A stretch of 64,000 bases of DNA from Porphyra umbilicalis (Eukaryota; Rhodophyta; Bangiophyceae; Bangiales; Bangiaceae), in NCBI GenBank assembly GCA_002049455.2, contig KV919065.1:29601-93600 (forward strand), in the 5' to 3' direction. The notes under the pieces were generated by a model, which saw only the letters and a program-made list of their open reading frames with translations, searched no databases and was not told where the DNA came from. The translations under genes and the position numbers were made by a program. Shown piece by piece: positions 15,734 to 60,600 of the stretch (within the stretch, counting starts at the first letter, position 1; every line of letters starts with the position of its first letter).

Positions 15734-16111
15734 TCAAAAGCACTGCCCCGTGACGGAAACAGCGTCGTCAGACTCGACCACGGCGGCAGCGGCAGCCGAC
15801 GACGACGGCACCAAATGCGGGCGCTTGAGCGGTCGTCCCGCCCGCTCCCACACCCCCGCCCCCCAAGTCACCACCAGCGCGTCTCCATCCGACAAGGCGA
15901 GCGCCTCCCGGTAGGTGGTGACGGGGGCGCCCTGCGGCCCCCCCGGCGGCCGCCACTGGCGCACCCGCAACGGGGAGGCGGACACCTCAAATGCCACCGC
16001 CAGCGCCTCGTGCAGCGCGGTCAGGGGAGGGGTCGGCGGCCCCGCCCCGATCCGCCCCGCCCTCCACACCCCGCTTCCCGCCCGCCTGCCCCCCCCCCCC
16101 CTTGCCCCCAT
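15734..16111 (-). CDS. Orphan ORF, possibly a host gene fragment with a ubiquitin-like fold
   Basis: The minus-strand frame ends at 15734. Its middle reads less like a shadow frame than its surroundings: LHEALAVAFEVSAS, RVRQWRPPGGPQGAP, LALSDGDALVVTWGAGVW. The pattern 'L-REAL...VRQW...SDGDALVV' resembles ubiquitin-like domains in a general way, but I cannot name a family. The ATG at 16111 lies in the CCATGG that also starts the retrotransposon ORF on the other strand, so the upstream part is missing or replaced by the element. It may be the 3' end of a host gene cut by the insertion, or chance. Confidence 0.25.
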   Translation of the reverse strand: MGARGGGGRRAGSGVWRAGRIGAGPPTPPLTALHEALAVAFEVSASPLRVRQWRPPGGPQGAPVTTYREALALSDGDALVVTWGAGVWERAGRPLKRPHLVPSSSAAAAAVVESDDAVSVTGQCF

Positions 16112-37818: not shown

Positions 37819-40295
37819 GGGCGTCGAATTGGGCGACCCCCGCCTTTTGGACGGAGGGTGTCTCTGTGGTTGGTACCTGGGGCGGGCGCCTGGCGCGGCG
37901 CCGCGGGGGAGTCCGTAGCCGCCGCCGCCTTCGCGGCCGCCTTTGCCGCTGCCTCTGCCACCCAATGTCGCGTCTGCCGGTGCGCCCGTGGCCCTTGACG
38001 CCGCCGCCGCAGCCGCAGCCTCTGGCATGGAGCGCGAGCAACAGCTGCGGGGGTGTGGGGCCGTGGGCGGCCGTCGGCCTGCCGGTCTGCCCGCGCCGCC
38101 TCGTCGGGCGCGCCGACGGCGCGCAGCAGCCGGTCCGGCATTGGCGCGTGGCCGGCGGAGCTGGGGATGGGCTCGCCCCGTCTGACGACGGACGCCGCGC
38201 AGCCTATCGGTAGATAGACGCGGCCTGTTGCGACGGGGGGTGCGTGACCCAAAGCGGCGGTGCGTCGCGCCACACGGCCGCCTCGCCGGCGCGCGCGGTG
38301 CCGCAGCCACCCCGCCCCGTCCGCAGCGGCGGCGGTCGGGCGTCGGCGTCCGACCCCCCGCCGGTCGCCCACGTGGCGCGTCGCGTCGCGGTGGGGCGCC
38401 CGCACGGTGGCGCCCGCGGCAGACGGGCAGACGGCGGTGGGGTCCCCCCCCCCCCCCCACTCTGCGGGCGCGGCGGGGGCCCCCGCCCGCGCCCCCGCGC
38501 GTGGCGCCGCCGCCGACGCGGCGTCTGGTCGACGCCCCCATCATTCACCCCCACGGAGCCGGGGGCGCCCCCGCCGCCCCCGCCCGCCGCCGCCGTGCCG
38601 CCGCGCTCACGTGCGACGCGGGGCGCACGCCGGGGCCGCGCGGCGGGCACGCGACGGCGGCGGGTAGGGGTCCACCACGGCCGCGGGGCGCTGCCGACGG
38701 ACCTCGGTTCCCCCCCCCCCCCCTCGAGGGCACGCGCGTGCGCGCGGGCGCGCCCGGATCCGCCCCCGCTCCCGCGTCTGTGGCTGCCATCGGCAGTTGT
38801 GGCGGCGGGGGGGGGGGAGCAGCGGCGCGCGCGCGGCGCGGGCCCCTGCCCCGCGCGCGCGGGCCGACGTGCCGGCCGCGGCCGCTCGCGCAACCGACGC
38901 CCGCGGGGGTGTGGGCGGCGGCGCCACGGCCGCCGGGGCCGGCCGCCGCGGCGCCGTGGCGGGGCGGCAGGCAGCGGGGCGTGGGGGGTCTCGGCGGGTC
39001 GGTCCCCCGCCGCCGAGGGTCATCCTCGGCGCCGGGGGGCCGACCCGCCGACACCGAGGCGGGGCTCGAGGCCCCACCCCACGCGCCCGCCCCGTGTGGG
39101 TGCCTGACGTCACGAGCGTCGGGCGCGGGGCGCTGCCCCGCCTCGCCCCGCCTCGCCCCCGCCTCGCCCCCGCCTCGCCCCGCCTCGCCCCGCCTCGCCC
39201 CGCCTCGTCCCGCCTCGCTCCACCTCGCTCCACCTCGCCCAACCCGTCGTTTGTGTGTGGTGGCAGACACGGTCGGTAGCGTCGCCGTTGCGGCGGTTGG
39301 CGGGGGGAGGATCCGCGGCGGGGGGGAAGGCGGCAATCCACGGCGGCGGTGATCGATCGGCGGGGTGGGCCCCCCTGCGCACCCCGCAATGCCGATCCGC
39401 GGCCGCGTCGGGGGCACGCGGCGGCCGGGCGCCGGCGGGTGCCGGCCGGGAGCTCACGCGGACCCGCGCGGGGGGGGCCCGCAACGGGTGAGGCGGGGCA
39501 GTGGTCCCTTGCAGAGCCCCCCGCGGACGGCGCCGCCGTCCGTCGTGGGTGCGGCCGCCTTACACGTTTTCGCCCCCCGTGCCTCCTCGCGCGTCAACGT
39601 CGGCGCCGGCGGCGGGCCGGCGGGCGGGCGGGCCGGCGGGCGGGCGGGCGGCAACGACTTTTGGCGTCCGACGTTTTTTTGGCTTGCTTGTGCGTCGTTG
39701 TCACGGTACCGGCCCGCGCCCCGCGCGGCGCGGGCGGTGGCCCGCGCGCGCGCGGCGGCGGCGGCGGCGGCGGCGGCCGCAGCGGTGCCTGAATTTGGCG
39801 GCCACGCCGGCGGCGGCGGCGGTGCCCCGCGGCGGGTGCCGGGGCGGCGGCTGCGACGGCGATCGGCGGCGTGGGGGGGGGGGGGAGCGCGCGGCGGCCG
39901 GCGCCGCCGTCTGCCCGCCACCGCCGCGCGTGGCGCGCCTCGGCGGGCGGGGCGGGCGTGTGTCGGCCGCCGCGGCGGCGCGTATATGGTCGTCTCGGGC
40001 GCCGGCGGCGGCCGCCCGCCGCCATCGGTCATTGCCCCACCGACGCGGCCGCGCCGCCGTCCCGCCCGCTGACGCTGCGCTGCGCTGCTCCGCGGCGTGC
40101 GGCCGTCCGTCTCCTCCCCCGGCGCGTGTCGTCCCCCACAAGCTGCCACGCCCTCTGCCGCCGCCCGGCGCGTCGCGGCCGCGCGTGGCCGTCTGACATT
40201 GGCAACGGCACCGCGGTGCGTTGCTGTCTGGGTGCTCTCTGGCGCCTCCTCGCCTCACTCCTCCCGCCCCCCCCCCCCCCCCCCGGACCGCCGCC
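37819..40295. other. Intergenic 2.5 kb, GC-rich, no gene recognised
   Basis: Many overlapping open frames on both strands, all Arg/Pro/Gly/Ala-rich without family motifs. Contains a minisatellite at 39137-39240 and the presumed promoter of the superoxide dismutase gene, ending in a C-rich leader (40266-40284). Confidence 0.5.
39137..39240. repeat. Minisatellite, ~10-base unit CGCCTCGCCC
   Basis: About ten head-to-tail copies of CGCCTCGCCC with occasional one-base length changes, grading into variants (CGCCTCGTCC, CGCCTCGCTC, CACCTCGCTC) towards the right. Confidence 0.9.
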
Positions 40296-41119
40296 ATGGC
40301 GCCCCTGCGCCGCACCGCGGCGGCGGCCGTGCTCCTTGCCGCCGCTACCGCCGCCGCCGCCGCCGCCGTCGGCGCCGCCGCCGAGTGCCCGACGGCCCCC
40401 CGCCTCGTGTGCACCCTCACCCCCACCGCCGGCAGCACGGTCGGCGGCTCTGTGTCGCTGACGCCCACGACCGCCCCAGACGGCACGTGCACGACGGCGC
40501 TGTCGGCGACGGTCAATGGCCTCACGCCCGGCACCGTCCACGGGTGGCACGTGCACGAGTTTGGGGACGTGTCCGCGGCGGACGGCACAGCGACGGGCGG
40601 CCACTTTAACCCGGCGGGCGTACCGCACGCGCTGCCGCCGAGTGCGGCGGGCGGGGGGGGCGGGGGGGGGGTGCGCCACGCGGGCGACTTTGGCAACTTG
40701 GTGCCCGCCGACACGGCGGGGGTGGCGACGGCCACGGCGGGGGCGACGAGCGCCTTGGCCGTCACCTCGTTGGTCGTCGGGCGCGGCCTGATCGTGCACG
40801 CGCTGCGCGACGATGGGGGGCAGCCGACCGGCAATGCGGGCGCGCGGCTTGCGCAGTGCGTGCTCGGCGTGGCGCCGCCAGTGGCCGCGGCGGTCCCCGT
40901 GGCGGGGGCGGCCGGGGCGGTGGTCATTGCCGACAGTGGCGACAATGCGGTCGTGGTGGAGGACGAGTCGGACGAGCGCACGCCGCCCTCGACGGTCACG
41001 ACCTTCCCGGGGGGGTCGTGTCGACGCCGACGCCCGAGGTCGTGACGCTCTTCCCGCCGCCGGCGGCGGTGGTTGTGAGCGCGACGCCGCCGGTTTTCTT
41101 TTCGACCTCGTCCGAGTAG
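40296..41119 (+). CDS. Secreted Cu/Zn superoxide dismutase
   Basis: Converts superoxide to hydrogen peroxide and oxygen. ATG 40296 gives a signal peptide (RRTAAAAVLLAAATAAAAAA, then AEC), so it enters the secretory route. The metal site is visible: HGWHVHEFGD, GGHFNPAG, RHAGDFGNLVP and LIVHALRDDGGQPTGNAGARL. The Cys that forms the usual internal disulfide in the loop before HFNP is absent (DVSAADGTATGGHFNP), and the C-terminal Cys sits one position later than usual (RLAQCVLG). The frame breaks at a G7 run (41009-41015); read continuously it stops at 41045, but the other frame gives a natural hydrophobic end (VVVSATPPVFFSTSSE) stopping at 41119, possibly a membrane- or wall-attached tail. Confidence 0.9.
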
Positions 41120-42118
41120 GCGTGTAGCCGTTGGGGGCGGACGGGAGCGGTAAACAGGAGGGGGGGGGTCGGCGTCGGATGGACGCCCTGCAAACACGAT
41201 GGACGGGCGCGTGGCAGCTGCAGGGGGGGTGGCGGTCTCTTTCGAGGGGGCAGGCCTTCTGCGCTGTAATCGATACCTATTTTTTTTTTTCTCGGTGGCA
41301 GTGGCCTTGGCCGTACTCCTCGTACAAACATAAGGGTGGTGTACCTTGCGAGAGCCATTCGAAGTAGACCAGTCTCAGATGCGTTGGGTCCTGTGATCGC
41401 CCTTCGGAGACCTGGAAGGCCGGTTTGAGCTCGAAGCCAAGAAATTTTCGGGGCGAGCTCTCCAGTAAGACAGAAACAGAGAGAAGGACAGGAAGAACGC
41501 CTGAGAATGAGCGCTACCTGCTAAAAAGTAGTTGACCATGCGCATGTTTGTGTTGTGTGTCCAGCCAAGGAACTTGGTTGTGCAGTACTCGACAGGACGG
41601 CTAAAACCACCTATGTGTGCCACATCTGTGCGTGTCCTTTCATGCTTTCGAGCGGGTGGACGAAGATTTTCAGGAAAGTCCAACTGTGCAGAGAAGTACC
41701 ACGGACGTGATACCTGCGCAAGTAAACGAACTTGAGGCGCACAGGCTGCTCGATGCGCTCTGCGCTCTCTGAACATTTTCAAGTTGTTTGTATTTATGAT
41801 TACGTATTTATTTGTGTCAGCTCGTCATAGTGCAGAGTTCGCGCGGCCGTCGATGGCCGCCGTCACCCATCGTGGCGATCACATGGCATCCCAGCTGTTC
41901 AGCTTGTGCGACAGCGATGGTGCTCATGACCATAAGAGTACCCCCTGGGTGGTGAGTCCCTGCCAGTGGATGGGTCTCTTCTTGCTGTCGACCGTCCTTT
42001 CTAGCTGGACCCTTGCCCTCCTTTCCGCGCCGGCCTGCTCTGGCACCTCGGCCATTGTGGTCGGCTGCCGCCTGCTCGCTTTCTGCCTGCTTCGCTCCTC
42101 CCAACCAAAGTCCACGAC
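41120..42118. other. Intergenic, A/T-richer, nothing recognised
   Basis: About 1 kb. Base composition becomes more even from 41270 to 41850 (T10 run near 41281), as in the transposon zones, but I find no terminal repeats or coding motifs. Probably contains the promoter of the kinase-like gene. Confidence 0.4.
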
Positions 42119-43375
42119 ATGGGTGATTCGCTTACGTCATCGACTCTGGCGGCGGACGCGCCCGCCAAAAATGGGGTCCCCCCCTCCCCAACGCCGGCCG
42201 TGCCCTTGTCGCTGGTGCGGGACGCGGTGTTGACCCACTGCACGGGGCTTGTGGGCGACGGCGGCGCGATTGACGCGTCTAGCATTACCGCCCGCCCGAT
42301 CGGCCTCGGCCTCGGCTTCCTCTCTTCGGTCGTAGCCGCCACCTTCGTTCCCACCGTCGTTACCGCCGCTGCCGACGCCGCCGCCCCCCCCGCCGACGCG
42401 GTGGGCGGGGAGGCGCCGCCGCCCACGCACCACACGGTCATTGTCAAGGTGGCGCCGAGCCGCGCCGACGCCCCCCCCATGCTCGACCTGCGCTTCCACG
42501 CCACGGAGGTGGCGTTTTACTCGCAGCTCCGCCCGCTCCTCACCACGGACGTGGTGCCCGCTGTCTATGGCGGCGCCGTCGACGACGCCACCGACGCTGG
42601 GGTGTTGGTTATGGAAGACATGACGCCACGCGGCGGGCGGGTGCTACCGTTTGCCGACGGCCTGCCGGCGGGTGCGGCGCTCGCCGCCGCGACGGCGCTC
42701 GGGCGCCTGCACGCGGACATTGACGCGGCGCTGCGTGGCGGGGGGAACGACGGCCGCGGGGGGCGGCCGCCCGCGTGGGTGTGCCGCCCCCCCGACGTGG
42801 CCGCTCGCCGCGCGGCGACGGTGGCGGGTCTCTTTGACGACGCGGCGGCGCGGCTGGCGGCGGCGGGCAGGGCAGGGGGCGTCCACCTCGATGCGGCCGA
42901 GTGGGTGCCGTCCCCGACTGCACCTCAGCGGCCGCCGGCCTTTGCAACGGTGGTCAATGGGGACTGTTGGTCCAACAACCTCTTTTTCCGCCACGGCGGC
43001 GCAGTCGCCGACGGTGGCGGTGCCGACCCCTGGGCGGTCGTCGGCATTGTCGACTGGCAAGTGGCCTCGTGGGACGCGGGTGCCGCCGACATTGCCTTCC
43101 TCTGGCTGTCGAGCGTGGACCCCGCGGTGCGCCGGCGGCCGGGCGCGACCGCCGCCTACCTCGACGCGTACGCGCGGGGGCTTGGGTCCGTTGGGTCCCG
43201 CGTCGGCCGCCCCAGGCTGGTGACCGACTGGCACGACGCGCTGCCGTGGGCGCTCGTCATGTGCATGACGATGCTCGAGGTGTTTGAGCCGGCGTGTTTG
43301 GCCCGCCTCGAGGCGGCGGTGGAGGACGCGGTGGCCGCGCGCAGGGGGGAGGGGCCGCTCGTGCTGACGCCTTGA
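42119..43375 (+). CDS. Ecdysteroid-kinase-like (CHK/APH-fold) small-molecule phosphotransferase
   Basis: 418 residues in one intact frame from ATG 42119. The APH/choline-kinase fold is indicated by TVIVKV (nucleotide-binding Lys strand), RFHATEVAFYSQLRPLLTTDVVPAVYGG (helix and hinge of EcK/CHK kinases), VLVMEDMTPRGGR, LGRLHADI, the Brenner-type loop VVNGDCWSNNLFF and the metal-binding VGIVDWQVASWDAGAADIAF. The catalytic Asp and Asn are kept, but the residue before Gly-Asp is Asn where most relatives have His. Family members phosphorylate hydroxylated small molecules (ecdysteroids in insects, choline or antibiotics in relatives). The substrate here is unknown. Confidence 0.82.
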   Translation: MGDSLTSSTLAADAPAKNGVPPSPTPAVPLSLVRDAVLTHCTGLVGDGGAIDASSITARPIGLGLGFLSSVVAATFVPTVVTAAADAAAPPADAVGGEAPPPTHHTVIVKVAPSRADAPPMLDLRFHATEVAFYSQLRPLLTTDVVPAVYGGAVDDATDAGVLVMEDMTPRGGRVLPFADGLPAGAALAAATALGRLHADIDAALRGGGNDGRGGRPPAWVCRPPDVAARRAATVAGLFDDAAARLAAAGRAGGVHLDAAEWVPSPTAPQRPPAFATVVNGDCWSNNLFFRHGGAVADGGGADPWAVVGIVDWQVASWDAGAADIAFLWLSSVDPAVRRRPGATAAYLDAYARGLGSVGSRVGRPRLVTDWHDALPWALVMCMTMLEVFEPACLARLEAAVEDAVAARRGEGPLVLTP

Positions 43376-44425
43376 TTTTGGGGAAAGGGGCGGAAAGGGG
43401 ATGGCGGGGGGATGACGATGAGGCTGGTCAATTGTAGTGCACAGAGGACGCTTGTACAGGATGGCTGCCTGAACAGCAGGCCAAGGTCGTGCGCAGCATC
43501 TGCGCTTGTACATCCGCGACGTATGCAGCACTCCATTGATACGTCGTGGCGCCACCAATCCAATCCACTCGTCTGTTCAGCTGCTACGCCTGTCAATGAA
43601 CCCGGGCTGCGTAGTCAACGTGCAGAGGAAGAGGACGGGTGATGCTCTGACAAACAGTCCAGAGGACGTCCTCGGCGTCGAAGCAAGCTCGGTCCAGGTC
43701 GCAACTGTGGCGATGCCCCATCAAGTAGCCCTGCGGTCAAAACGTGCCGATCCTGGTCAAATCTCGCTCTCATCACCCCGCAGAGTCTTGCAGCGGTCGC
43801 CTGCGGAGGTCAAGGAAAGGCCCCCCCTCGTGGCAGGCCCTCGGGGCACACTCGTCCGCTGATCCCATTCCATTTTGCACGCGGGTCGCGGCAGCACCGC
43901 TGCTGCACCGCCTGTGATCGCCAGTGCGCGCGTCGCGCGCTCGCCACCCACCGCTTGGGTGGCTCAAAAGCAGTCTCTGCGCTTCCTGGGATGCCTCCCC
44001 CACAGCCCCCTCCAACTCCCCCCACCTCATCTGCTCCTGTATGGCGCGTGAGCACACGCGCTGAGCGCTCGTTTGGGCAGCCCCCATAATATCCCCCCGC
44101 ACGCGCGCCCTCGCGCGTTTGCAAGCCCCGCTGCCGGGCGACGGGCGGCACGCGGTCAGTGGCGGGTCGCCACGCCGGCTGCCGAGTGCCCCCCCCCCCG
44201 CGTCACCGACGTGCGGTCGGCCGCTTCCCCCCGGCTGGCATCCGCCGCCACCCTCCCCGGTGCATGCACGCGCGCTCAACGGTCGCGTCCAACACCTTCC
44301 CCTGCCCCCCCCCCCCCCCCCCACACCTTCATATCTCTTTGACGTTGCACCGTGCCGTGCCGCGCCGCGCGTGCGCGGCCGCCCGCCGCGGCCTCCCCGC
44401 TCCACGCCGCCGCGATCTCGCCGCC
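43376..44425. other. Intergenic upstream of the giant gene
   Basis: About 1 kb without recognisable genes. It includes a C14-15 run near 44309-44323 and a pyrimidine-rich leader before ATG 44426. Confidence 0.45.
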
Positions 44426-47400
44426 ATGGACGGTCCGCCGCCGCCGCCGGTGCCCGCCTTCCTCACCCCCCCGGGTCTACCGTCGGCGCGTCGGCGGACG
44501 GCGTCGACGACGCCGTGGCGCCGCTCTGGTCGCTCTCTGTCGGTCGTGCGCGCGGCCGCGGACGGGGCCCCATCGGCGGGCAGCGCCGGCGGCGGGGCGG
44601 GTGAGAATGCGCCGCCGCCGTCGCGCAGTGCCTGGTCGGCGGTGGGGGAGCAGGCGGGGTGGGGGGGTGGCCTGCCTGGTGGCGCTGACGGGCGGCCGCT
44701 TGCGGAGCGAGTTGAGCTGGTAGGTTTCCTCTCCTCTATGTGTGGGGTGCTCGACGTGCCGGAGGCCGTGGGATTGTCTTTTATTGTTCTTGTTCGTTCT
44801 TGGGTTGGGAGCGGACATGTACGCGACTTGTCGGTATGGGTTGCTTGATTCTGGGCGACTTGGATGCTGACTGTGATTGTGTTCTGTTTTTTGGGCTCGT
44901 GAGTTGCTCTGCTACTCTCTTGGTTACGTTCCCGTTTTTCTTATTTGGATGATCTTGTTCCTCTCTTATCGGGATCGTGTGCTATTTGCCCGCGCGCAGG
45001 TGACCATCGCCTATGCGGCGTGGTTTTCCCGGAAGTTCGCAGTGCACACTGAGGTGAAAACGGTGCAACCCGAGCCGCAGCGCACGATCGGTGCGCGCGT
45101 GCTTTCTGGGGAGAGACTGGCCATTGCCACGTTTGGCTTCCAGGGCGTGTCGCAGTCGAGCAGCTCCTCGACGACGACGCGCACGAGCTCCACCCAGTTC
45201 ACCAGCACCTCACAGTCGAGCAGCTCTTCGACGACGACTACGCGCACGACCTCCAGCCGGGTCGATGGCGGTATGACGGCTACGACCTCGACCTCTTCGA
45301 CGGGGGTGGATGGGAGCTCTGATGTGGGCGCGTACGCGGCCACACCCGAAGGTGTCGCGCTGACGGCTGCAGTGGCGATGGACCAGGCGCTCGCGGCGTC
45401 AACCAAGTCTGGGACCGCTGGCGTCGGTGAGGTGACGCCCCCTGTGCCGGTAGCCGATGCTGCCGAGGATGCCGCGCGCCGCGCGGCTGGTGCTGTGGGC
45501 GGGGCGGTTGGCGACGCTGCCGACGCTGCCGCACGTGCGGCTGCATCGGCGGCAAGCGCGGCAAGTGTCGCCGGATCGGTGGCCGCGGACGCTGGGCGCG
45601 ATGCTGCCGCTACTGCTAGCCGCGCGGCGGATGTGGCTGGCGATGTGGCCTCGGACGCTGGACGGGTGGGTGGTGCGGTCGGACGGGACGCGATGGACGC
45701 GGCGGGGCGGGCGGCCAACGTTGCTGGTGATGTTGGCGGTGACGTTCTCGACAGTGCCGGCAGCGCTGCCGGGGATGCGAGAGACTCGTTTATGAAAGTG
45801 ATGGGCGCTGCTGCGAGTGCTGCCGCCGCCGCGGCGGGTGGCATTGCTGGCGCGGTCAGCCGTGCCGGTTCCGCTGCGGGTGACGCAGCGGGTGACGCGT
45901 CGGATGCGGCGGCTCAGGCTATCCGCGATCCGACGTCCGCGTTCCCGGAAGCAGTTGGGCCAGTGGAGCGCATTGCCGCCAAATTGGAGGCTGAGGCACG
46001 CAGCGCCGCTGGAGTGGTGGACAGCGCTGTCAGCGATGCGGCGTCGTCAGTGTACCGGGCGGCTGTCGACGCCGATGCTGATTTCCCTGATGCGGTCGGA
46101 CCTGTGGAGCGTATGGCAGCCCAGATGGAGGCGGACGCGCGCCGTGGGGCGAGTGCGGCAGACCGGGCGGCCATCGACTTGGCCTCGTCTGTGGGCTGGT
46201 CGGCCAGCAGTGCGACATCGTTTATGGAGCGCTCTTCCCGAAAGACGGCGTCCAAGACCGAGCGTGCCACCAGCGATGCCGCTTCAACGGTTGATCGTAG
46301 AGTCGACGATACGGTGCAGTGGGCGAGCCGTACGGTTGAAGGTGTGGATGATGCGTTTCCCGAAGCTGTCGGCCCTGTGGACCGGATTGCCGCCAAGATG
46401 GAAGTGGAGGCGCGTCGTGCCGCCGGGGTGGTTGACAGCGCTGCCAGCGATGCTGTGTCGTCCGCGTACCGGGCTGTTGAAGACGCCAATGTTGACTTCC
46501 CTGACGCCGTCGGACCGGTGGAGCGCATGGCTGCCAAGCTGCAGGCCGAGACTCGTCGTGGGGTGAGCTCGGCGGACCAGGCAACCAGCAGCTTCACTTC
46601 GACTGTGGGCAGGTCGGCCAGCAGTGCAACGTCGTTTGTGGAGCGTTCTTCTCAGGACACGGCCTCCAAGGTCGAGCGTGCTGCCAGTGACGCAGCGTCA
46701 ACGGTCGACCGTGCGGTCGATAGTGCCGCGCAATCGGTGAGCCGTGCTGCCAACGGTGTGGATGAAGCGTTCCCTGACGCGGTTGGACCGGTGGAGCGCA
46801 TTGCCGCCAACATGGAGGCTGAGGCGCGCCGCGCGTCTGGGGTGGTTGACAGCGCTGCCAACGATGCGGTGTCGTCGGTGTACCGGGCGGCTGTCGACGC
46901 CGATGCTGATTTCCCTGATGCGGTCGGACCTGTGGAGCGTATGGCAGCCCAGATGGAGGCGGACGCGCGCCGTGGGGCGAGTGCGGCAGACCGGGCGGCC
47001 ATCGACTTGGCCTCGTCTGTGGGCTGGTCGGCCAGCAGTGCGACATCGTTTATGGAGCGCTCTTCCCGAAAGACGGCGTCCAAGACCGAGCGTGCCACCA
47101 GCGATGCCGCTTCAACGGTTGATCGTAGAGTCGACGATACGGTGCAGTGGGCGAGCCGTACGGTTGAAGGTGTGGATGATGCGTTTCCCGAAGCTGTCGG
47201 CCCTGTGGACCGGATTGCCGCCAAGATGGAAGTGGAGGCGCGTCGTGCCGCCGGGGTGGTTGACAGCGCTGCCAGCGATGCTGTGTCGTCCGCGTACCGG
47301 GCTGTTGAAGACGCCAATGTTGACTTCCCTGACGCCGTCGGACCGGTGGAGCGCATGGCTGCCAAGCTGCAGGCCGAGACTCGTCGTGGGGTGAGCTCGG

Positions 47401-50400
47401 CGGACCAGGCAACCAGCAGCTTCACTTCGACTGTGGGCAGGTCGGCCAGCAGTGCAACGTCGTTTGTGGAGCGTTCTTCTCAGGACACGGCCTCCAAAGT
47501 CGATCGTGCTGCGAGCGATGTGGCCTCCAAGGTTGGTAGTGCAATGGACGAGGTGACGGCGGACTTTCCTGACGCGGTTGGACCGGTGGAGCGCATTGCC
47601 GCCAAGATGGAGGCTGAGGCGCGCCGCGCCTCTGGGGTGGTTGACAGCGCTGCCAACGATGCGGTGTCGTCGGTGTACCGGGCAGTTGGTGACGACAATG
47701 TCGAATTCCCCGACGCTGTGGGACCTGTGGAGCGCGTTGCCGCCAAGTTGCAGGCGGACGCGCGCCGCGGGATGAGCGCGGCGGACCGAGCGGCCAGCGA
47801 CTTGGCGTCGACAGTTGGCAGGTCGGCCACCAGTGCAACGTCGTTTGTGGATCGCGCTTCCTGGGATACGGCTTTCAAGGTGGATAGGGCCGCCAGTGAG
47901 GCGGCTCAATCCTTCAAGCGCACGGCGGGCGACCCGACAGAGTCTTTCCCGGACGCGGTTGGGCCCGTGGAGCGCGTTGCCGCGCGCTTGGCATTGCAGG
48001 CTGATGGCTCCGCCGGTGTTGTGGACCGGACTGCGTACGATCCGTCGGCGTTGCTCCCACGCCCGATCGGACCGGTGGAGCGAATTGCCGCCCGGTTGCA
48101 GGCTGAATCCGGCCGTGCGGCGCCTGCCGTCAGCCGCGATGCGGGTAGTGCAACTGCCGATGCCAGCAGCTCTGTCGACAGCGCCTCCAAGGTGGCCGAC
48201 CGGATGTCAGGTTCGTCTGTTCGCAAGACCAGCTCCTCGGCTGTGTCTTTCCCCGATGCGGTCGGGCCGGTCGAGCGCATTGCCGCTCGATTGGAGGCCG
48301 AGAAGGGTGGGGTTACCGAGTCGGCGCGCCGTGCTGCTCTTGAGGCGCTCAGTCCCATTGAGCGCATTGCCGCGGGTCTGGCAAGTGATACGTCAGCGGC
48401 GGCGAGCCGCGCTGCTGACTCCGCTGGCGACGCTCTCAACTTTGCCCAGTCGGCTGCGTCCGACGCTGCTCGTGGTGTGGACGAAGCGGGCGATCGCGCC
48501 GCGTCTGCCATCGCCGACACGAGCATTTCAGCCGTGGTCGGCGACGCGACAGGCACGGCTGCGCGTTCGGCCAAGAACTTTGCGGCGGATGCCGAGCAGG
48601 CGACTGAGTCGATTGCCGAGGACCTGGCCGGCAAGACGGGTGGTGGTAAGCGCCCCCTGGCCTCGGATGTACTCACAGGTGGCATGACGTCGCGCAAATC
48701 GACCGTCGACGACGTGGCTGCCGAGACTGCGAAGGATGTCCGGGACGCGACCGTCAATGTTGCCAAGGACGCACGAACTGCAGCAGCCAATGTGGCAGCG
48801 GGGGCGCGCGATGTTGCCTCAGATGTGGTGGACCGTATCCCGGGCGCCGTGGACGTTACTGGCAATGTGACGGGCGCAGTGTTAAATGCGGCCGGTCGTG
48901 GCGCTGCGGCTGTATCGGACGGCATTGCAGCCGGCGCAGCAGGTGCGGGTGATGTCGCGGCACAAGCGGCCGACGCCACTGGCCAAGCTGCTAAGGAGGC
49001 TGCGTCCGCGGCTGGGGATTTGGGCAATGATGCCCTCTCCAATGCCGGTGGCGCTGTCGGCTCTGCGGCGGTGGGTGCTGCCGACGCGGCTGACACGCTC
49101 GACAAGAAGGTTCAGGGTGTCAACTTGGGCGCCGTCGCCGCCGGAGCTGTGGAGGCGGTGGCCAAGGCCATTGCCGGCGCAGACGAGAAGGCCTCTTCGG
49201 CAGCTGGTGCCGCCCTGGAGGCCGCCGGTCGTGGGGCATCTGCCGGCGCTGACGAAGCCGCCTCGGTCGCGGCGGACGTGCGTGAGTGGGACCCAGCTGG
49301 CAAGGCCGCGTCTACTGCCAGCACCGCTGCGAGTGCGGTTGGTGACGTGTTGAATGCGACTGGGGAGGCCACCGCGGACACGCTGGCGGCCGGCACGCGC
49401 GTGGCGGGCGACGCTTTGACTGAAACGGAGCGTGCCGCCACAGACGCGGCGGATGCGGCGGGGAATGCCGCCCAGGACCTCGGCATTCGCGGCGCCATCG
49501 ATGACTCGGTCGGCGCGGTGGAAGGCAGCGCTGCCGCCGCTGCTCGTTTGGCTGGCGGGGCGGTCAATGCCACTGAGGATGCTGCCGTCAATGCGGCATC
49601 CGCCGCCGAGCGCGCTGCGCTCGACGCCCGCGAGCTGTCTGAGCTCATGGCGGCCGCTGCCAACCGCAGTGCTGAAGACCTCGCTGCTGACGTCAAGCGT
49701 CGTGCTGAGGAAGCCGGCCTTGGCTCGTCTGTCGACTCGGTGGTCGGCGACGTCCAGTCGGCCGCGAGCAGCTTTGTACAGACCATTGGCGACGCCATTG
49801 AATTGGCAGATGATGCAGCTGTGGACGCGTCGGGTGCTGCCATTGACGCTGCTGGGGAGACAGCGCGCCGCGCTGGCCGTGCGCTGGACGATGCGGAGGC
49901 GCGCTCCTCGAGTGCCGCCCAAGATGTGAAGCGGACGGCTGGGTATGTGGTTGATGATCTAGGCCAAGCAACTGCTTCGGCTGCCCGTCGCGCGGACAGC
50001 GCTTTGAGCGACGCCGAGGCTCGCGCAGCGGCGGCAGGAAGAGAGGCTAAGCGGACGGCTGGCAATGTGGTCGACAATGTTGGTGACGTCAATGTGTTGG
50101 AGGACGCTGCCGACACGGCCACCGACAAGGTGGGTGACGCGTACGAGTCTTTCAAGGGCGCTGTCGACTCGGCTTCTCGCAAGGCTGGTGACGTGGCTGA
50201 TGGTGCCGAAGACCGTCTGCGCTCGACCACTGACGAGGTCTCTTCGTCAGTTGAAAATGCGCTCGACGCGGCCGGTGGCGCTGCCGGGGCGGCCGTGCGC
50301 AAGACTAGCCATGCCGCAGACGATGCGAAGGACGAGACCAAGGAATCCGCCGCCGATGTCGTCTCTGCAGCTGGCGGCACAACTACCGCGGCGCAGCGAC

Positions 50401-53400
50401 TGGCGGCAGAGATGGCTGCCGCGGCGGACCGCAGCGCTGTCGATATCGCTTCAGAATTGCAGCGTCGCGCTGCTTTGTCAGCCGGTGGTGCCAGTGAAGC
50501 CGATAGTAACAGAGGCGCGAACAGCAGCGAGAGCGTTGCTGTGGAGACGCTCTACACGCCCCCTGGTTCGGGCGAGTCGCCGACGGGTGTGAGTCCGGCG
50601 GCACCCACGTCGACCGGTAGCTTATATGCTGCCCCAGGCGCTGCGGTTGTGCCGCCGGGCGTGCCTGATCCCGTGACGACTTCGTCGACTGAGACGTTGT
50701 ACACGTCGTCCGGGGCTACCTCCACGGAGGCGACGGACACGAGCACTCTTTACGAGGCGCCGTCGGCTTTCAAGGACGATGAGGAGGCGGGCGGCGCAAC
50801 GGGGGCGTCGTCGGACGGTTCTTCTACCGTTCCGCCCTCGTCGGTCAAGACACTGTACACCGCGCCCGGCTCCGGTCAATCGCCGACGGGGGTGGCCCCG
50901 TACGCGCCGGCGGCTCGGAGCTCACAGTATGTGGTTCCGGACTGGGGCGTCGACCCGGCCACTTCGTCGTCCACGGAGCAGCTGTACGAGGCGGCGAGCG
51001 ATGCTTCAAGTGCCGACTCGGCTGGCGACGACAATACGAGCGGTACCAGCGTTGCTGGCGACATTGCGGCCGAGCTCAACGCCGCATCCAAGGGGGTCGT
51101 GTCGGCCTCCACAGAAGCGTCGGACGTGGTGGCACAAGCTCTCGAGGTGGCCGAGTCGGCTGCTGAGGCAGCCAATGCTGGGGCTGATGGTACGGTCGCT
51201 GGCACCGGCACGGCCGCCGGCCAGACGCCCCCGTCGGTTAAAACGCTCTATACGGCTCCTGGGACTGGGCAGTCGCCTACAGGGGTGGCCTCGGGTCCGC
51301 CTGCGGCTCTTGGTACCATGTACGGGCCGCCGGATGATGCGACGGCAGCGCCTGGTGTGGAAGACCCCGTGACGACCTCGTCAACTGAGACGCTGTACGA
51401 GGCCCCTGACAATGGCTCTGCTGTGTCGTTGGATGCGACAACTCTGTACGAGTCGTCCTCGGGGGCAGCCGGCACCGCGGACTCCACATATAACACGTCG
51501 GGCTCGAGCAGCTCGTCGACCAAGACCAGTTCGTCAAGCACGAGCAGCACCACCACAACCTTCACCACGTCGACCTCGAGCAGCTCGCAAACCAAGGGCA
51601 TCGCGTTTAGTGACGTCAAGGCGGGTTCTATTGCCGCTCAGAATGCCACTGGCATTCCGGAGATCGAGCCTGACGCCAGCGGCACGTACAACTCCGGCAC
51701 GGACGGGTCGTCTGGCTCTGAAATTATCAGCTCCGCCGCCGATACCGTGGCCGGCGGGACGGCTGCTCTGGATGTGACGAAGGAGGACCTCCCGCCCGTC
51801 GAGCCTGGGTCCGTGGTGACGCCGGGTGGCGTCATCCTCCCGCCGGACACCCTCACTGGCGGCATGGACGGTGGCGTTGGTGAGATCTCCGACGCGGCGG
51901 CCAAGGGCGTTGTGTCGCCTGACACGGATGTGTCTGGTGCCATTGCGCAGGCATCGGATGTTGCCGAGGCGGTTAGCGGCGCACTCGACGACTCGGATGC
52001 TGGCGGCGCCATCACCGTGGAAGAGTCAGCGATCACGCCGGGCACAGTCGTCACACCAGGTGGCGTGATCCTGCCGCCGGCTGCCCTTGGATCGCAGTAC
52101 GAAAGCGCATCCATCGACGCAGCTGCCGGTGATTCGTCGACCAGCTCGTCAAGCTCGTACACCGCGAGCTCGTGGACGAGCTCGTCAAACAACTCTTCGA
52201 CTACGACCGCGACGGGCTCCACTGTCTCCTCGGGCGGTTGGACCCAGCCGCCGGCCGCTCGCGGGTCGCAATATGGCGTGTCATCTGGGGAAGTCGGGGA
52301 CCTCTCCAACGCTGCTTCCAAGGGGCTGGTGTCTCCGTCCACGGATGTGTCGGGCGCCGTTGCACGAGCGACGGAGGTGGCCGAGGCGGCTGAATCAGCA
52401 GTCAAGACGACTGACGCCGCGTTTGCAGGCGAGACCGCCGAATCGGTGCAGACCCTGTACACCGCTCCGGGATCTGGGCAGTCGCCCACGGGTGTGTCGT
52501 CGGGGCCACCAGCTGCGCTCGGGTCTCTGTACGCGGCCGGTGGTGGCCCTCCAGCGTCACCAGGTGTCGCCGATCCCGTCACCTCGTCGTCGACGGAGAC
52601 GCTGTATGAAGCCCCTGGGGCCACTTCTCCTGTGTCGTCGGACACCAGCACCTTGTACGAGGCGCCGTCGGGAGCGCCCGATGGCTTGTCGGTGTCGGGA
52701 ACCGCTTCCGCCGCTGACCGCTCTGATGCTTTGAATGGGGCGGCTGATGACCTCGCCGACGTGGCCAACGCGGCGGTCAAGGACGTAGTGTCTTCTACCG
52801 TGGACGTGGCCGGCGCGGTGGCCCGTGCCGTTGAGGTAGCCGAGGCGGCGGGCAAGACAATGCTCCCACCTGCGGCCCGTGGCTCTATGTACAATGTCCC
52901 GTGGGACTTGACAGCACCGGAACTCAAGGGCCCCGTGCCGCCGCCGGTCAAGGCTCCGGAGCCGCCGGCGCCAGAGTCGGTCGCTTCAGAAGCGTCTGCT
53001 GCTGTTGCTCCTAGTGCGGATGCGCCCGCGGTTGCCACGGGTGTCCAGCAGGAGCCGACGGATGCCTCTTCCAACTCGGGCACGGCTTTCCTCCAATCTG
53101 TTCTTGTGCCCGACAGCAGTGTTCCGAATGCAGTGGTCGTGGCTACGGAGGAAGCCACACCCTCTGACACTGAATCGGCCACGGACATATCTATGAAGTC
53201 GGCCTCGGCTGCATCCACGGACTCGATGGTGGTCAAGCCGCCCATCGAGGCCGCGACGGCGCCCCCGACGGCGGCGGCGGCTTCCCCGGTGGATCCCGCC
53301 ACTACTGCATCATTGGGCCTCTCTTCGGCTGCGGCCGCTGCGTTCAACGTGTCGGCGTCGGCAGAGACGACGTCGTCGTGGTCCACCAAGTCGACCACGT

Positions 53401-55754
53401 CATCAACCTCCGAGTCGGCCACGTCGTCATCATCTCAGTCAACGAAATCTTCGGCGGCTGGGTCTTCAACGGCAGACTCGACAGACCCGGCCATTGTGAT
53501 GCCACCGACAGCTGACGCGGCAGCGCCGCCGACTGCGGCCGCGGCTGCTCCTGTCGAGCCGGTGGACGCCCGAGCAGCGTCCGCTGCCAAGGGCACCGGC
53601 GTGTCTGCCTCGACAAGGTCCAGCAAGGCGGGTTCACCGCTGGGGTGGCTGCGGCGGGTGCTCAACGCTCCACGCGGCAAGTACCCTGGCGGTGGCGCCC
53701 GGGCGGAACGCCCGACACCGCAAGTGGGAGATGTTGTTCCTCAGTCGGAGCTGGATGAGGATGTTGGCGCCGCTGAGCGGGCGGCTGGCGTTGCGGCTAG
53801 CAAGGTGTCGGCCCAGGCGGACGCGGCGGCGGATCCCATGGCCATGTGGGAGGGTGCACCAGGCACTAACTCGGCTGCAGATGCCACGGTTGCAGGTGCA
53901 GGCGCGAGAGCGAGTGCGAGAGACGCTATCGCTGGCGACGCTGGCTACACCAGTGCGCTGTCCACAGCGTCGGAGAGCGGGGAGTCGCCGCCGCCCGGGA
54001 CTTCCTCATCCGCAGAGACCCTGGAAGAGACTGCCGATGTGGGCTCACCGGTATCCCCCTCACCGTCGACCCTTTATTCGGCGGAGACGGGTGGCGCCAG
54101 CAAGGACGCTTCATCGTCGACCCTCTACTCGGCGCAGATGGGTGGCGCCAGCAACGACGCCTCGTCGTTGACCAGCGGCACTTTCACGACAACCGACACG
54201 GAGACGTCCAAGAGTGCCATGGAGCGGGCGAAGGAGCTGTCGGCAAGCTTTGCCGCTGACATTGCTGCCGAGGCCGAGGCCGTCGCCGACACGCTGGACA
54301 CGTCAGTCGGTGCGGCGGAGCGTGCGGCGGGGGCCATGGCCCGTGACGTATCGGCCGAAGCCGACGAGTCGGGTACGTCGGGGTCGACGTGGTCGGGTGC
54401 AGCGTCGACCGGTGCGGACATTGCGACGGCGGGCGGCGACGCTGGTTCAGATGTGCTGCCGACGCAGCATGCGGATGAGCTTGGCTCTCGTTCGCCAGAC
54501 GCGTCGGCTTCGTCCGACGCGACGGTCGATGCGGCGAAACGCGCAGGCGGTTGGGTGTCGCGTGAAGAGTCGGCTGATGCCGACGAGGCGAGCACCTCTA
54601 GGTCGAGTTGGACGGCCTCCTCGTCGTCGTCGGCGGCCGATAAGAGCTCTCTGACGCGATCGCAGGACTCATCCATCTCGATTGACGCGACTGTGGGGGC
54701 GGCCGAGAGGGCGGCGGCGGAGATTGCACGCGAGGTGTCAGACGAGGCATACGCAGCGGGTCAGTCGGGCACGGGGGTGGTTGACGCCTCGACTGATGCA
54801 GACAAGGACGACTCTACTGGCGTGCCTGGTGAGGCGTCAGGCGACTCGCCGACGGGCGTGCGCGCATCGTCGACGGGCGTTGTGTATGTGCCCCCGGGCG
54901 GGGCGTCGGCTGTGTCGGTGGTTTCGAGCTCGGACACTGGGTCCTCGTCGTCGTCCACGTCTTCATCGAGCACGTCTTGGTCGTCGTACTCAACGTCGAC
55001 GTCGTCCACTACGACTTCCACCACATCGACGATGTACACGACGTCATCCACGGAGGGCACCCAGAGCGGGGCAGACGGCGATCAAGACGTGTCGGTGACG
55101 GTCGCGTACTCGCTCACCACCGATGGCAGCGAAGGAGGGAGCGAGAACGACGGGGGTGCCTCCTCTGCGCTGCCGACGGCCGGCGGCGCCGATGCGGCAG
55201 CGGCCAAGCTGTGGGACGCACAGGTCGAAACCTCCTTTGCGCCCGGCGGCGCCGACGCGGTCGCGGCAACGTGGACGAGCGCGACCGACACGTCGTGGGC
55301 CAAGCTCACCAGCTCCGGCACTGAGTCTGACGGTGCCGGCGTTGGCGGTGCCACCGGTGCGGGTGCTACCTCCCAAGCGAGTGCGGAGGCGACCGCTGCT
55401 GACGCTCAGTCGACTGTCTCTGGAGGGGATGCCAGTGGCACCGCTGCCGTAGGCACGGGCTCATCGGCCGCGACGGACCTGTCCAAGCCCGCCCCCGAGG
55501 GCGGCCAGGGCGATGGCGGCGAGGTTGCCTCGAACGCGGCGGAGTCGCCCGGCTTCACGCCGTCCTACCGTGAGTACCAGCGCGGCACGCAGTTCCGCCG
55601 GTGGCAAGGGGCGGGGAGGCGTCGGGGTGGCAAGGTGTCTTACAAGTCGGAGCGCATCAATGACATCCCCGCGTACGAGAATCCCTTCCTCAAGCGCAAC
55701 GGCGAGCAGGGGGAGGGGGAGGATGACAAGTCAGCGGGCGGTCCAGAGGCATGA
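44426..55754 (+). CDS. Giant repeat protein, LEA-like, with plastid-transit-like N-terminus (two exons, ~3,680 aa)
   Basis: Exon 1 is 44426-44719; the 280-base T-rich intron is GTAGGT...GCAG; exon 2 is 45000-55754; phase 0 on both sides. The first ~45 residues are Pro/Ser/Arg/Thr-rich with almost no acids, and RSLSVVRAAADG looks like a plastid cleavage site. Then come Ser/Thr tracts, an Ala/Asp-rich helical LEA-like part (~210-410), 14 units of FPDAVGPVERIAAKMEAEARR (~413-1230), a long second LEA-like part (~1232-1940; GQAAKEAASAAGDLG), units of ETLYTAPGSGQSPTGV and PPAARGSQY (~1945-2770), Ser/Thr-rich linkers, and a basic C-terminus (REYQRGTQFRRWQGAGRRR). No known domain is recognised. The 10.7 kb frame has no breaks and is less GC-rich than its neighbours. 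If the intron is not used, the frame could start at 44877. Function unknown; a desiccation or membrane-protective role is inference only. Confidence 0.72.
46050..47497 (+). repeat. Near-identical ~620-base tandem duplication inside the giant gene
   Basis: Bases ~46050-46669 recur, apparently without change, at ~46878-47497 (offset 828 bases), whereas the other units of the same protein repeat have diverged. The duplication carries four GPVER/GPVDR units and preserves the frame. Confidence 0.85.
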
Positions 55755-56161
55755 TTGTGTCGCTGGCGTTGCCAGTCGGTGGTGGGCCGCCTCCCTCAGA
55801 GCTCGGTTTGAGCTGCGCCGTGCGCGTGTTTGTTCTTCTTCGCATGCGTGTCCGGTTCATGCTTTGACTGGTTCATTCATTGCGTCGCAACTCTGTGGCT
55901 GTGCATTTTCTTTGTTCTTGCTTCTGCTACGGCACTGTTGTGCATCATTTTTTAGCCACACTGCTCTTCTTTGATTTTTTTTCTTTTGTCCTTTCCTTTT
56001 TTCCCCCACGGTTCTCGCTCACGTGCCGCCGACCGCACTGCGGCTCGAGCCAAGCACAGCCCACACAGCGGTCAACCCGCCAGGGACGCGGTCCCTCTTG
56101 GTTTGCCTCGTGCACACGCCACGCACACCATCCATTCACCTGGACGGACGGGCGCTGCCCG
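55755..56161. other. Spacer between convergent genes
   Basis: T-rich stretch after the giant gene (55855-56005), a likely 3' UTR and polyadenylation area. No gene seen. Confidence 0.5.
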
Positions 56162-57371
56162 TTATCCCCCGCCCTCCGCCCGGGGCGGCAAGTCGACGCC
56201 ATAAAAGTCGGCGCACGCAACCAACTCTGCCGGCGGGTTGGCGGTGATGACGACGGGCTCCCCCCCCGCCCCCCCCGCCACGACCGTCGCCGGCACGTGC
56301 AGCCGCCACGCGTGCAGCTTGAGCCCCGCCCGCGCCGCCACCCCGTCAATGACCTTGGCGCGGGCGGGCACCGCCGAGGCAGCGTGCAGCTCCTCCATCG
56401 ACCCGTACAGCGCCCGCTCCCGCCCGTACAAGTCGTCGCCGACAATCGGCAGGCCGACCGACCGCAGGTGCACGCGCAGCTGGTGAGTGCGCCCCGACAC
56501 GGGCGTGCAGTGCACGAGGGAGACGGTGCGGGCGGCGTTGACGGCAAGCACCCGAAAGTGGGTCAAGGCGGGCTTGCCGTCGGGGTCGCCCACGTCCACG
56601 CGGCGCGCAATGCGGACGTCGGGGTCCCGGCAGATGGGCGCGTCGACGCTAAAGTGGGTGGCGTCGGGGGGGGCGGCAGCGGCAGCAGCATCAGCAGCAA
56701 TAGCAGCAGCAGCAGCAGCAGCAGAAGCTGCCGCAGCAGCGGCGTCGGCAGTCGCGCCAGCGTCCGCAGCGGCGGCAGCGGCGGCTTGGTCGGCGCCGCC
56801 GCCCTTGCGGCGCGCCCCCCCCCCCCCCTCCCCCTCGGCGGCGGGACGCCGCGCAGGTCGGCCACCCCCGCCGCCACGGCGGCCGCGTCGCCATCCACCA
56901 GCGCGAGGTACTCCTTGTCAATGGTGCGGTTTTGAAAGGCGGCCGACATGGGCGCCACGACGGCCTTGGCCTTGCCAAAGAGCACCACCCCGGTCGTGTG
57001 CATGTCGAGCCGATGCAGCACGTACGGTTCGGTGCCGAGGTAGCCAATCAGGCGGTTGACGAGCGTGCCGCCGACAAAGCGGTGGATTGGGTGGATTTTG
57101 ACATAGGCGGGCTTGGCGACGGCGACGAGGTGGGGGTCCTCGTAGAGCACCGTGACGGGCTCGTGGTCAACGACGAGGGGGATGGCCTTGGATTTGAGGC
57201 GGAGGTCCATGCGCGCCCGTTCGCTCATGGCGCCCACGTCGAGGCCGACGTAGGGGGTGATGGTCGGACTTGGGGGGGGGGGGGAGGGGGGGGGGGCCCC
57301 CGGCCTCGACCGCATCACCACCGGCAGCGTTGCCGAGTGCGGCGCCGCCCGCAGGGGGTGGGGATGCGTGT

Positions 57372-57409
<38 letters not shown>

Positions 57410-57652
57410 GAGTGGGGGTGGCGGTGGTGGCTCACCCGCCGCCGAAGCGGCCATGCGGCTCGCCATGGCGCCGACGCGGCGCGCGTCGGCCGCCAGCAGC
57501 AGCCGCCGCCGCGCCCCCGGGGTGACGCGGGCGGCGGTGGAGGCGGCGCCGCGGCGCCCGCCGCCCGCGGCGGCGGCGGCACCCACAGTGGCGGGCAGGC
57601 GGGCGATACAGGCACCGCGCGGGGATGCGGGGAGGAGGAAGAGGATGCACAT
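56162..57652 (-). CDS. RluA-family RNA pseudouridine synthase, organelle-targeted
   Basis: Isomerises specific uridines of rRNA or tRNA to pseudouridine. ATG 57652 opens a hydrophobic/Arg-rich, acid-poor leader (MCILFLLPASPRGACIARLP). G runs at 57272-57284 and 57286-57296 shift frame to the catalytic domain: TVLYEDPHLVAVAKPAYVKI, LIGYLGTEPYVLHRLDMHTTGVVLFGKAK (HRLDxxTxG, catalytic Asp) and NRTIDKEYLALVDG. A C14 run (56815-56828 on the plus strand) shifts frame again. An Ala-rich insert follows, encoded by CTG/CAG-type repeats, then DVGDPDGKPALTHFRVLAVN, LVHCTPVSGRTHQLRVHLRSVGLPIVGDDLYG (family motif) and a stop at 56162. All core motifs are in order. The leader could be mitochondrial or plastid. 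Confidence 0.9.

Positions 57653-60600
<2,948 letters not shown>

Follow-up and report, generated by a model that had tools for sequence, protein, structure and literature searches.

A giant acidic repeat protein of Porphyra umbilicalis with selected short motifs, a candidate plastid scaffold

A 64,000-nucleotide stretch of the red alga Porphyra umbilicalis (assembly GCA_002049455.2, contig KV919065.1, positions 29,601 to 93,600; hereafter the window) carries, at window positions 44426 to 55754 on the forward strand, a gene encoding a giant repetitive protein of 3,682 residues. Selection on this protein acts on discrete short peptides, and the strongest constraint falls on two motif classes, the GPVER and the TLY motifs. 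We favour the reading that the protein is a nuclear-encoded, plastid-imported stromal scaffold of the sticker-and-spacer type whose partner is left open, although this reading is tentative and falls somewhat short of an even chance.

Repeat modules and selection on short motifs

The first motif class is concentrated in the GPVER array (45936..48395, +; residues 411-1230), which contains 14 FPDAVGPVERIAAK-type motifs and is amphipathic throughout. The helix unit can be written as FPDAVGPVERIAAKxEAEARR. The 14 GPVER units proposed in the initial annotation are present as 14 sites, but the exact GPVER string occurs in 11 of them, the others being two GPVDR and one SPIER. Three GAAER motifs near the C-terminus, at 53766..53837 (+; residue 3021), 54309..54380 (+; residue 3202) and 54696..54767 (+; residue 3331), are probably diverged relatives. 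Successive motifs in the array are spaced by 47, 91, 47, 91, 47, 91, 47, 80, 47, 80, 36, 65 and 29 residues. All 13 spacings therefore lie within 29-91 residues, and most are 47 alternating with 91 or 80. A block of approximately 276 residues (828 nt) inside the array, at window 45936-47591, was recently duplicated, with a DNA identity of 95% between residues 411-548 and 687-824 and of 88% between residues 549-686 and 825-962. Because of this duplication, the number of GPVER repeats may vary between strains.

Nonsynonymous and synonymous differences per site (pN and pS) were compared between the 21-residue motif and the next 24 residues in 55 pairs formed by 11 of the 14 GPVER units. The remaining three were excluded, two because their FP[DE]AVGPV[ED]R string is incomplete and one because it is located beyond residue 1100. 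The motif exhibits a pS of 0.53, a pN of 0.12 and a pN/pS of 0.23, whereas the adjoining spacer exhibits a pS of 0.53, a pN of 0.35 and a pN/pS of 0.66. These pairs are non-independent, owing to shared ancestry and the inclusion of recent copies, and the robust result is the difference between motif and spacer inside the same pairs. One Pro, one Arg and two Ala positions are invariant in 14 of 14 GPVER-type motifs, each with three or four codons.

The second motif class defines the Tyr-motif region (50406..52925, +; residues 1901-2740), which holds 17 of the 20 [ST][LMQ]Y sites of the protein. The ETLYT..PTGV and PPAARGSQY repeats described earlier are both found here, as four copies of TLYTxPGxGxSPTGV and five of PPAA(L/R)G(S/T)xY. 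The four TLYTxPGxGxSPTGV copies (6 pairs) give a pS of 0.65, a pN of 0.10 and a ratio of 0.16. The [ST][LMQ]Y context accounts for 20 of the 45 Tyr residues, compared with a mean of 0.57 and a maximum of 3 over 2,000 shuffles. A third repeated module, with the consensus KG(V/L)VSxxTDVSGAxA(R/Q)AxEVAEA, occurs in four copies in variant spellings: NAASKGVVSASTEASDVVAQALEV at 51078..51149, AAKGVVSPDTDVSGAIAQASDVAE at 51897..51968, NAASKGLVSPSTDVSGAVARATEV at 52308..52379 and AVKDVVSSTVDVAGAVARAVEVAE at 52773..52844, all on the forward strand.

Precise motifs are kept while their codons drift, as expected for stickers on tethers, which favours a multivalent scaffold. In contrast, a generic protectant of the late embryogenesis abundant (LEA) or a similar type needs composition and amphipathicity, not exact peptides, and is disfavoured by this pattern.

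Gene structure and overall layout

In the gene model, exon 1 (44426..44719, +) encodes residues 1-98 with a transit-peptide-like N-terminus. It is followed by a T-rich intron (44720..44999, +; GTAGGT...GCGCGCAG) and by exon 2 (45000..55754, +), which encodes residues 99-3682 and the stop codon. Joining 44719 to 45000 keeps the frame and gives a product of 3,682 amino acids with a single terminal stop. The intron has a G+C of 0.507 and a T of 0.396, the two exons a G+C of 0.796 and 0.671, and the proposed junctions fit because this low-G+C, high-T composition differs from that of the exons. An alternative splice from 44600 to 45043 is likewise in frame (3,628 amino acids, one stop). An in-frame ATG is present upstream of exon 1 at approximately 44264, which would allow a longer leader than modelled. 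The uninterrupted open frame spans 44877-55754 (3,625 codons), and position 44877 is a TTG within the proposed intron. At a stop rate of 0.0226 per codon, calculated at the local G+C with independent bases, ln P for 3,584 open codons is -82, which rules out a chance open frame; the next longest frame starting within 40000-56000 is antisense and has 594 amino acids. Judged by its sequence, the gene is real, and the intact frame of about 10.7 kb with a spliceable first exon, initially put at some 3,680 residues, is confirmed. The right edge of the window is the end of the contig.

The protein has a mass of 358 kDa, a pI of 4.28, a net charge of about -228 and no Cys, and is composed of 22% Ala, 14% Ser, 9.5% Gly, 8.1% Asp, 5.2% Glu and 2.2% Lys. 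This acidity stands out, given that a passage of PMC6681478 describes 70% of the P. umbilicalis proteome as basic. A Ser/Thr tract separates the leader from a first Ala-rich amphipathic-helix stretch, A1 (45396..45935, +; residues 231-410; 38% Ala), and long Ser/Thr tracts are present in the chain. The GPVER array follows A1 and is itself followed by a second Ala-rich amphipathic-helix stretch, A2 (48396..50405, +; residues 1231-1900), and the Tyr-motif region. The part C-terminal to this region is Ser/Ala-rich, includes the three GAAER sites and leads into the C-terminal tail (55503..55751, +). The tail, which comprises the last 83 residues, has no Pfam match and is present as a single copy in the genome. 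It had been described as basic; a basic patch, YREYQRGTQFRRWQGAGRRRGGKVSYK, is indeed present, but the overall pI of the tail is 6.5. In a self-comparison of the protein, 87 diagonals, part of them simply Ser/Thr tracts, lie above the highest value from three block-shuffled controls.

Helical patterning and predicted structure

The Ala/Asp-rich helical stretches noted initially are supported by an amphipathic pattern and lag-11 self-similarity over residues 231-1900, which resemble group 3 LEA proteins. The 3.6-residue period has a z score of 24.5 in A1 and 11.1 in A2, and A1 is self-similar at lags 3, 4, 7, 11 and 18. Scored locally against shuffles, the 3.6-residue hydrophobic periodicity reaches z 17 in A1, 30 in the GPVER array and 21 in A2, and is weak elsewhere (3.5 in the Tyr-motif region and 1.4 in residues 2741-3600). 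In the same order of segments, self-identity at lag 11 has z scores of 4.1, 9.2, 5.1, 1.6 and 2.0, and the mean hydrophobic moment z scores of 8.0, 15.2, 13.6, 4.5 and 1.9. Such patterning would also suit a multivalent helix array.

An AlphaFold2 model of a 158-residue part of the GPVER array, built on an alignment of five internal copies, contains two helices, one of which starts from the Pro in the first GPV[ED]R, the other from that in the second FPD. The mean predicted local distance difference test (pLDDT) value is 44.5. Residues 2560-3682, modelled with no alignment, are predicted as coil with 1051 of 1123 residues below a pLDDT of 50, except for two helices at residues 2670-2716, which hold the fourth copy of the third module, and residues 3166-3215, which hold the second GAAER motif. 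The low pLDDT agrees weakly with disorder, yet such values are expected anyway for a sequence with no relatives.

Searches for relatives and the protectant and surface-coat alternatives

Searches of Pfam, NCBIfam, PHROGs and PDB sequences gave no credible family for the giant protein. COG5_N, DBINO, DUF6987, DUF6398 and GvpQ appeared below their cut-offs, and one PHROG of unknown function matched weakly (expectation value, E, 0.004). The initial statement that no family is recognisable therefore stands in Pfam, NCBIfam and the PDB sequences, apart from a marginal match to ApoLp-III. Among prokaryote genome contigs 593 pattern matches were obtained and among viral contigs 194, and none was confirmed as a homologue. 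Genome-wide searches covered the 83.8-Mb host assembly. There, the GPVER array, the Tyr block, the tail, the N-terminal block and the third module each match only their own gene at E <0.1, with the best matches elsewhere at E 0.16-0.29; by these searches, the gene is single copy in its red-algal genome. Searched as exact patterns, FPxAVGP matches 12 times and GPVxRxAA 13 times, in the giant gene only, with 0 matches for reversed-pattern controls, in a scan that allowed no mismatches and that intron-split copies would escape.

The amphipathic patterning raises an alternative, namely that the protein is an LEA-like or other plastid desiccation protectant, the Ala-rich chain of which would adopt amphipathic helices during drying and protect thylakoids or proteins of the stroma. 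This possibility is consistent with the local periodicity (z 17-30) and the self-similarity at lag 11 across A1, the GPVER array and A2, with a hydrophilic chain that has no Cys and with a plausibly intertidal host. However, the LEA_4 profile has no match on the protein up to E 1 and, in a whole-genome search, none at its locus. Lys and Glu are scarce in the whole chain and within residues 231-1900 (Lys 1.1-3.1%, Glu 1.1-6.1%), where they stand beside the 11- and 3.6-residue periodicity. Selection is concentrated on discrete motifs, and a protectant leaves the Tyr-motif region, with its weak helical patterning (z 2.8-4.5), unexplained. The giant protein thus has in common with group 3 LEA proteins (LEA_4) its hydrophilicity and, over residues 231-1900, an amphipathic helix with 11-residue periodicity; it differs in lacking an LEA_4 match, in its low Lys and Glu, in its discrete conserved motifs and in its length, approximately 6-37 times the 100-600 residues that the initial annotation states for that group. 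Membership of LEA group 3, suggested there, is not supported, and a protectant role in general appears unlikely. LEA proteins are also reported as not found in a passage of the Neoporphyra haitanensis genome paper (PMC8752119).

In the same whole-genome search, two LEA_4 matches below the cut-off were found on other contigs, at G000:C11:156683-156802 (L044) and G000:C529:21107-21226 (L045), each with 32.6 bits against a cut-off of 51.1. Their frames are 700 and 707 amino acids, respectively, and are possible LEA-like proteins, which would bear on the view that algae of this kind have no LEA proteins.

Less likely still is a protein that covers a membrane or lipid surface (that of the thylakoid, inner envelope or plastoglobule) with an amphipathic coat, similar to an apolipoprotein or perilipin. 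The hydrophobic moment over residues 231-1900 (z 8 to 15 over shuffles) argues for such a coat, and ApoLp-III (PF07464) is the only Pfam family above its cut-off (36.3 bits), scoring 43.6 bits with two passing stretches on the GPVER array alone. For the whole of exon 2, however, the score drops to 38.1 bits and no individual stretch passes. ApoLp-III, a family of insect proteins, forms a small helix bundle, and its likeness to the giant protein is a marginal profile match on amphipathic helices; the match probably reflects the amphipathic composition of an Ala-rich helix, and homology is not established. A lipid coat also leaves the Tyr-motif region and the acidic charge unexplained.

N-terminal leader and targeting

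The leader (residues 1-45) is rich in Arg, Pro and Ser, with a pI of 12, seven Arg and one acidic residue, and a likely cleavage site was placed by eye after MDGPPPPPVPAFLTPPGLPSARRRTASTTPWRRSGRSLSVVRA, before AADG (VVRA/AADG). Twelve phycobilisome-linker domain matches were found in the genome, four on the 185-kb plastid contig C665 and eight on nuclear contigs, and the eight nuclear loci (L033-L040) served as the comparison set. Together with the rbcS region of that plastid contig, the twelve matches mark the host as a red alga. Three of the eight (L035, L036 and L038) have ATG-led leaders with MAFV, MAAFI or MAFI starts, and L039 starts with MYPPTGLASVCRRP, which is leader-like as well. L037 has an MAFS start and no obvious leader. 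In L033 and L034, an in-frame Met is located only inside or after a stretch resembling the second exon of a leader, and L040, truncated by the contig end, has no in-frame Met ahead of its phycobilisome-linker domain. The leader of the giant protein carries PAFLTPPGLPSARRRTAS, which resembles L036 though not at the extreme N-terminus, and its AFLTPPGLPSARRR is similar to AFIPAGGVSPAALSTARR in L036. By this comparison, made by eye, the leader is comparable with the nuclear phycobilisome-linker leaders of the same genome. The transit-peptide-like first exon proposed initially is thus retained, the protein is probably imported into the plastid, and the leader counts in favour of a plastid scaffold.

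Hydropathy gave no hydrophobic signal peptide in the first 60 residues (best 11-residue value 0.93) and no secretory or membrane segment (best 19-residue mean 1.5, within Ala-rich sequence), and lumen targeting, membrane anchoring and secretion are judged unlikely on this basis. In particular, the plastid-lumen location considered in the initial annotation is unlikely because the hydrophobic second signal is absent. A non-plastid role, in which the leader would only mimic a transit peptide and the product would be either a Ser/Thr-rich structural protein (secreted or in the cell wall) or a flexible protein of the cytosol or nucleus, is improbable: the long Ser/Thr tracts, the true N-terminus left unsettled by the upstream ATG, the judgement by eye and the missing extreme N-terminal M(A)AF of some nuclear phycobilisome linkers are compatible with it, but the lack of a signal peptide and the Arg-rich, nearly acid-free leader with its L036-like string argue against it.

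A proposed stromal sticker-and-spacer scaffold

In the favoured reading, the Arg/Ser/Pro-rich leader, of approximately 43 residues, would direct the protein to the plastid. Much of the chain, its second half above all, is acidic in composition and would be flexible, as the AlphaFold2 confidence weakly suggests. Approximately 14-17 short amphipathic helices, the GPVER motifs with their GAAER relatives, would each dock on a site of one abundant partner, and with 14 GPVER helices on tethers of 29-91 residues, one chain could bridge many partner molecules. The Tyr motifs, approximately 20 in number and flanked by Pro and Gly (TLYTxPGxGxSPTGV and PPAARGSQY), may, together with the third module, link chains to one another, by analogy with the Tyr motif GTGYNP in PYCO1, the Rubisco linker of a diatom. 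The outcome would be a dense plastid condensate.

By analogy, the most plausible partner would be red-type Rubisco in the pyrenoid, a doubtful assignment at present; a phycobilisome, Calvin-cycle or thylakoid-surface component is the alternative. Bangiales are described as possessing a pyrenoid. Equally doubtful is the fuller proposal that the protein is the Rubisco linker of a red-algal pyrenoid, a giant and acidic one that is independent of EPYC1, CsLinker and PYCO1 and has two main classes of motif, the GPVER helices, which would bind red-type Rubisco, and the Tyr-Pro/Gly motifs, which would join chains. Plastid contig C665 carries rbcS (Pfam) between frames recognised by eye as rbcL and cbbX (L042, G000:C665:30000-32500), which counts in favour of the proposed scaffold, and this region offers host Rubisco sequences for tests of the linker idea.

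Several observations weigh against the scaffold and its Rubisco-linker form. The amphipathic-helix pattern over residues 231-1900, 45% of the chain, is the LEA-like part of the protein and fits an LEA-like protectant or a surface coat equally well. In the GPVER-array model, 128 of 158 residues have a pLDDT below 50 and none exceeds 70, and the charge-hydropathy method, in which Ala is counted as hydrophobic, calls disorder for the leader and the tail only. The pI of 4.28 and net charge of about -228 are at odds with a linker search that filters on pI, and EPYC1 is described with three positive residues per binding motif in part of PMC9614477. The 3,682 residues compare with PYCO1 residue numbers up to 592, and the KWSP and AEW motifs of PYCO1 are absent from the giant protein. 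Chlamydomonas pyrenoid proteins reportedly share an address motif, which is also mentioned in PMC10288592; a corresponding role of the present motifs found no support, since the exact patterns occur in no other gene.

Should the giant protein organise Rubisco, the sticker-and-spacer solution would have arisen again, in an acidic chain approximately six times the length of PYCO1, and to our knowledge this would be the first Rubisco linker from a red alga with a primary plastid; diatoms use the same Rubisco type as red algae. With another partner, a plastid scaffold of 358 kDa with selection at the level of its motifs would still represent a new red-algal plastid organiser. Short peptides such as FPDAVGPVERIAAKMEAEARR are directly usable for Rubisco-binding assays.

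Neighbouring genes

Pfam matches identify three ordinary neighbours, an EcKL/APH-like kinase (42119-43375, +), an RNA pseudouridylate synthase (56563-57615, -) and a two-repeat Myb protein (58182-59033, +), and no functional link of these three to the giant gene was seen. Farther upstream, a 1,538-amino-acid frame at window 15915-20531 (+), by eye similar to a Copia-type retrotransposon polyprotein, coincides with a strong negative GC skew at 16-20 kb.

Comparison with known Rubisco linkers

EPYC1 is strongly basic, and a basic pI would be expected of a linker. The available text of PMC13159521 names Rubisco linkers in green algae, a diatom and possibly a chlorarachniophyte, and states that they share no sequence homology across lineages; the lack of homologues of the giant protein is therefore neutral for the linker reading. 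No red-algal Rubisco linker was among the matches listed in open-access literature searches, which does not establish its absence in print. The search rule that found CsLinker, as given in part of PMC11570498, looks for disordered proteins with repeated structured elements at a spacing of 20-120 residues, and the Figure 1c legend of that paper includes pI among the filters of the search (FLIPPer). The giant protein has 14 motifs with a helical pattern (the modelled helix being of low confidence), and all 13 of their spacings fall in that range. Its pI of 4.28, in contrast, is acidic, the opposite of that of EPYC1.

EPYC1 of Chlamydomonas and CsLinker of Chlorella likewise combine repeats at 20-120-residue spacing with a transit peptide (PMC11570498, in part), for which the giant protein has only a transit-peptide-like leader. 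The giant protein differs from both in being acidic and much larger and in having more than one motif class. PYCO1 of Phaeodactylum tricornutum, from a red-type pyrenoid, is closer. According to parts of PMC10288592, this single plastid protein has both a helical repeat that binds Rubisco and a Tyr repeat. It binds the Rubisco small subunit through a helical Trp motif and the large subunit through a weak C-terminal helix, and its self-association is driven by the Tyr repeat. Both proteins are repetitive chains with a helical motif and a Gly/Pro-flanked Tyr motif in a host with red-type Rubisco, PYCO1 being plastid-targeted and the giant protein probably so. PYCO1, however, extends to residue 592 with six repeats and KWSPR, GTGYNP and AAEWGSMNQ motifs (PMC10288592, in part), whereas the giant protein, known here from sequence alone, has 3,682 residues, an acidic composition, GPVER and TLYxxPG motifs and long amphipathic stretches. 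With these differences, PYCO1 is its nearest working analogue.

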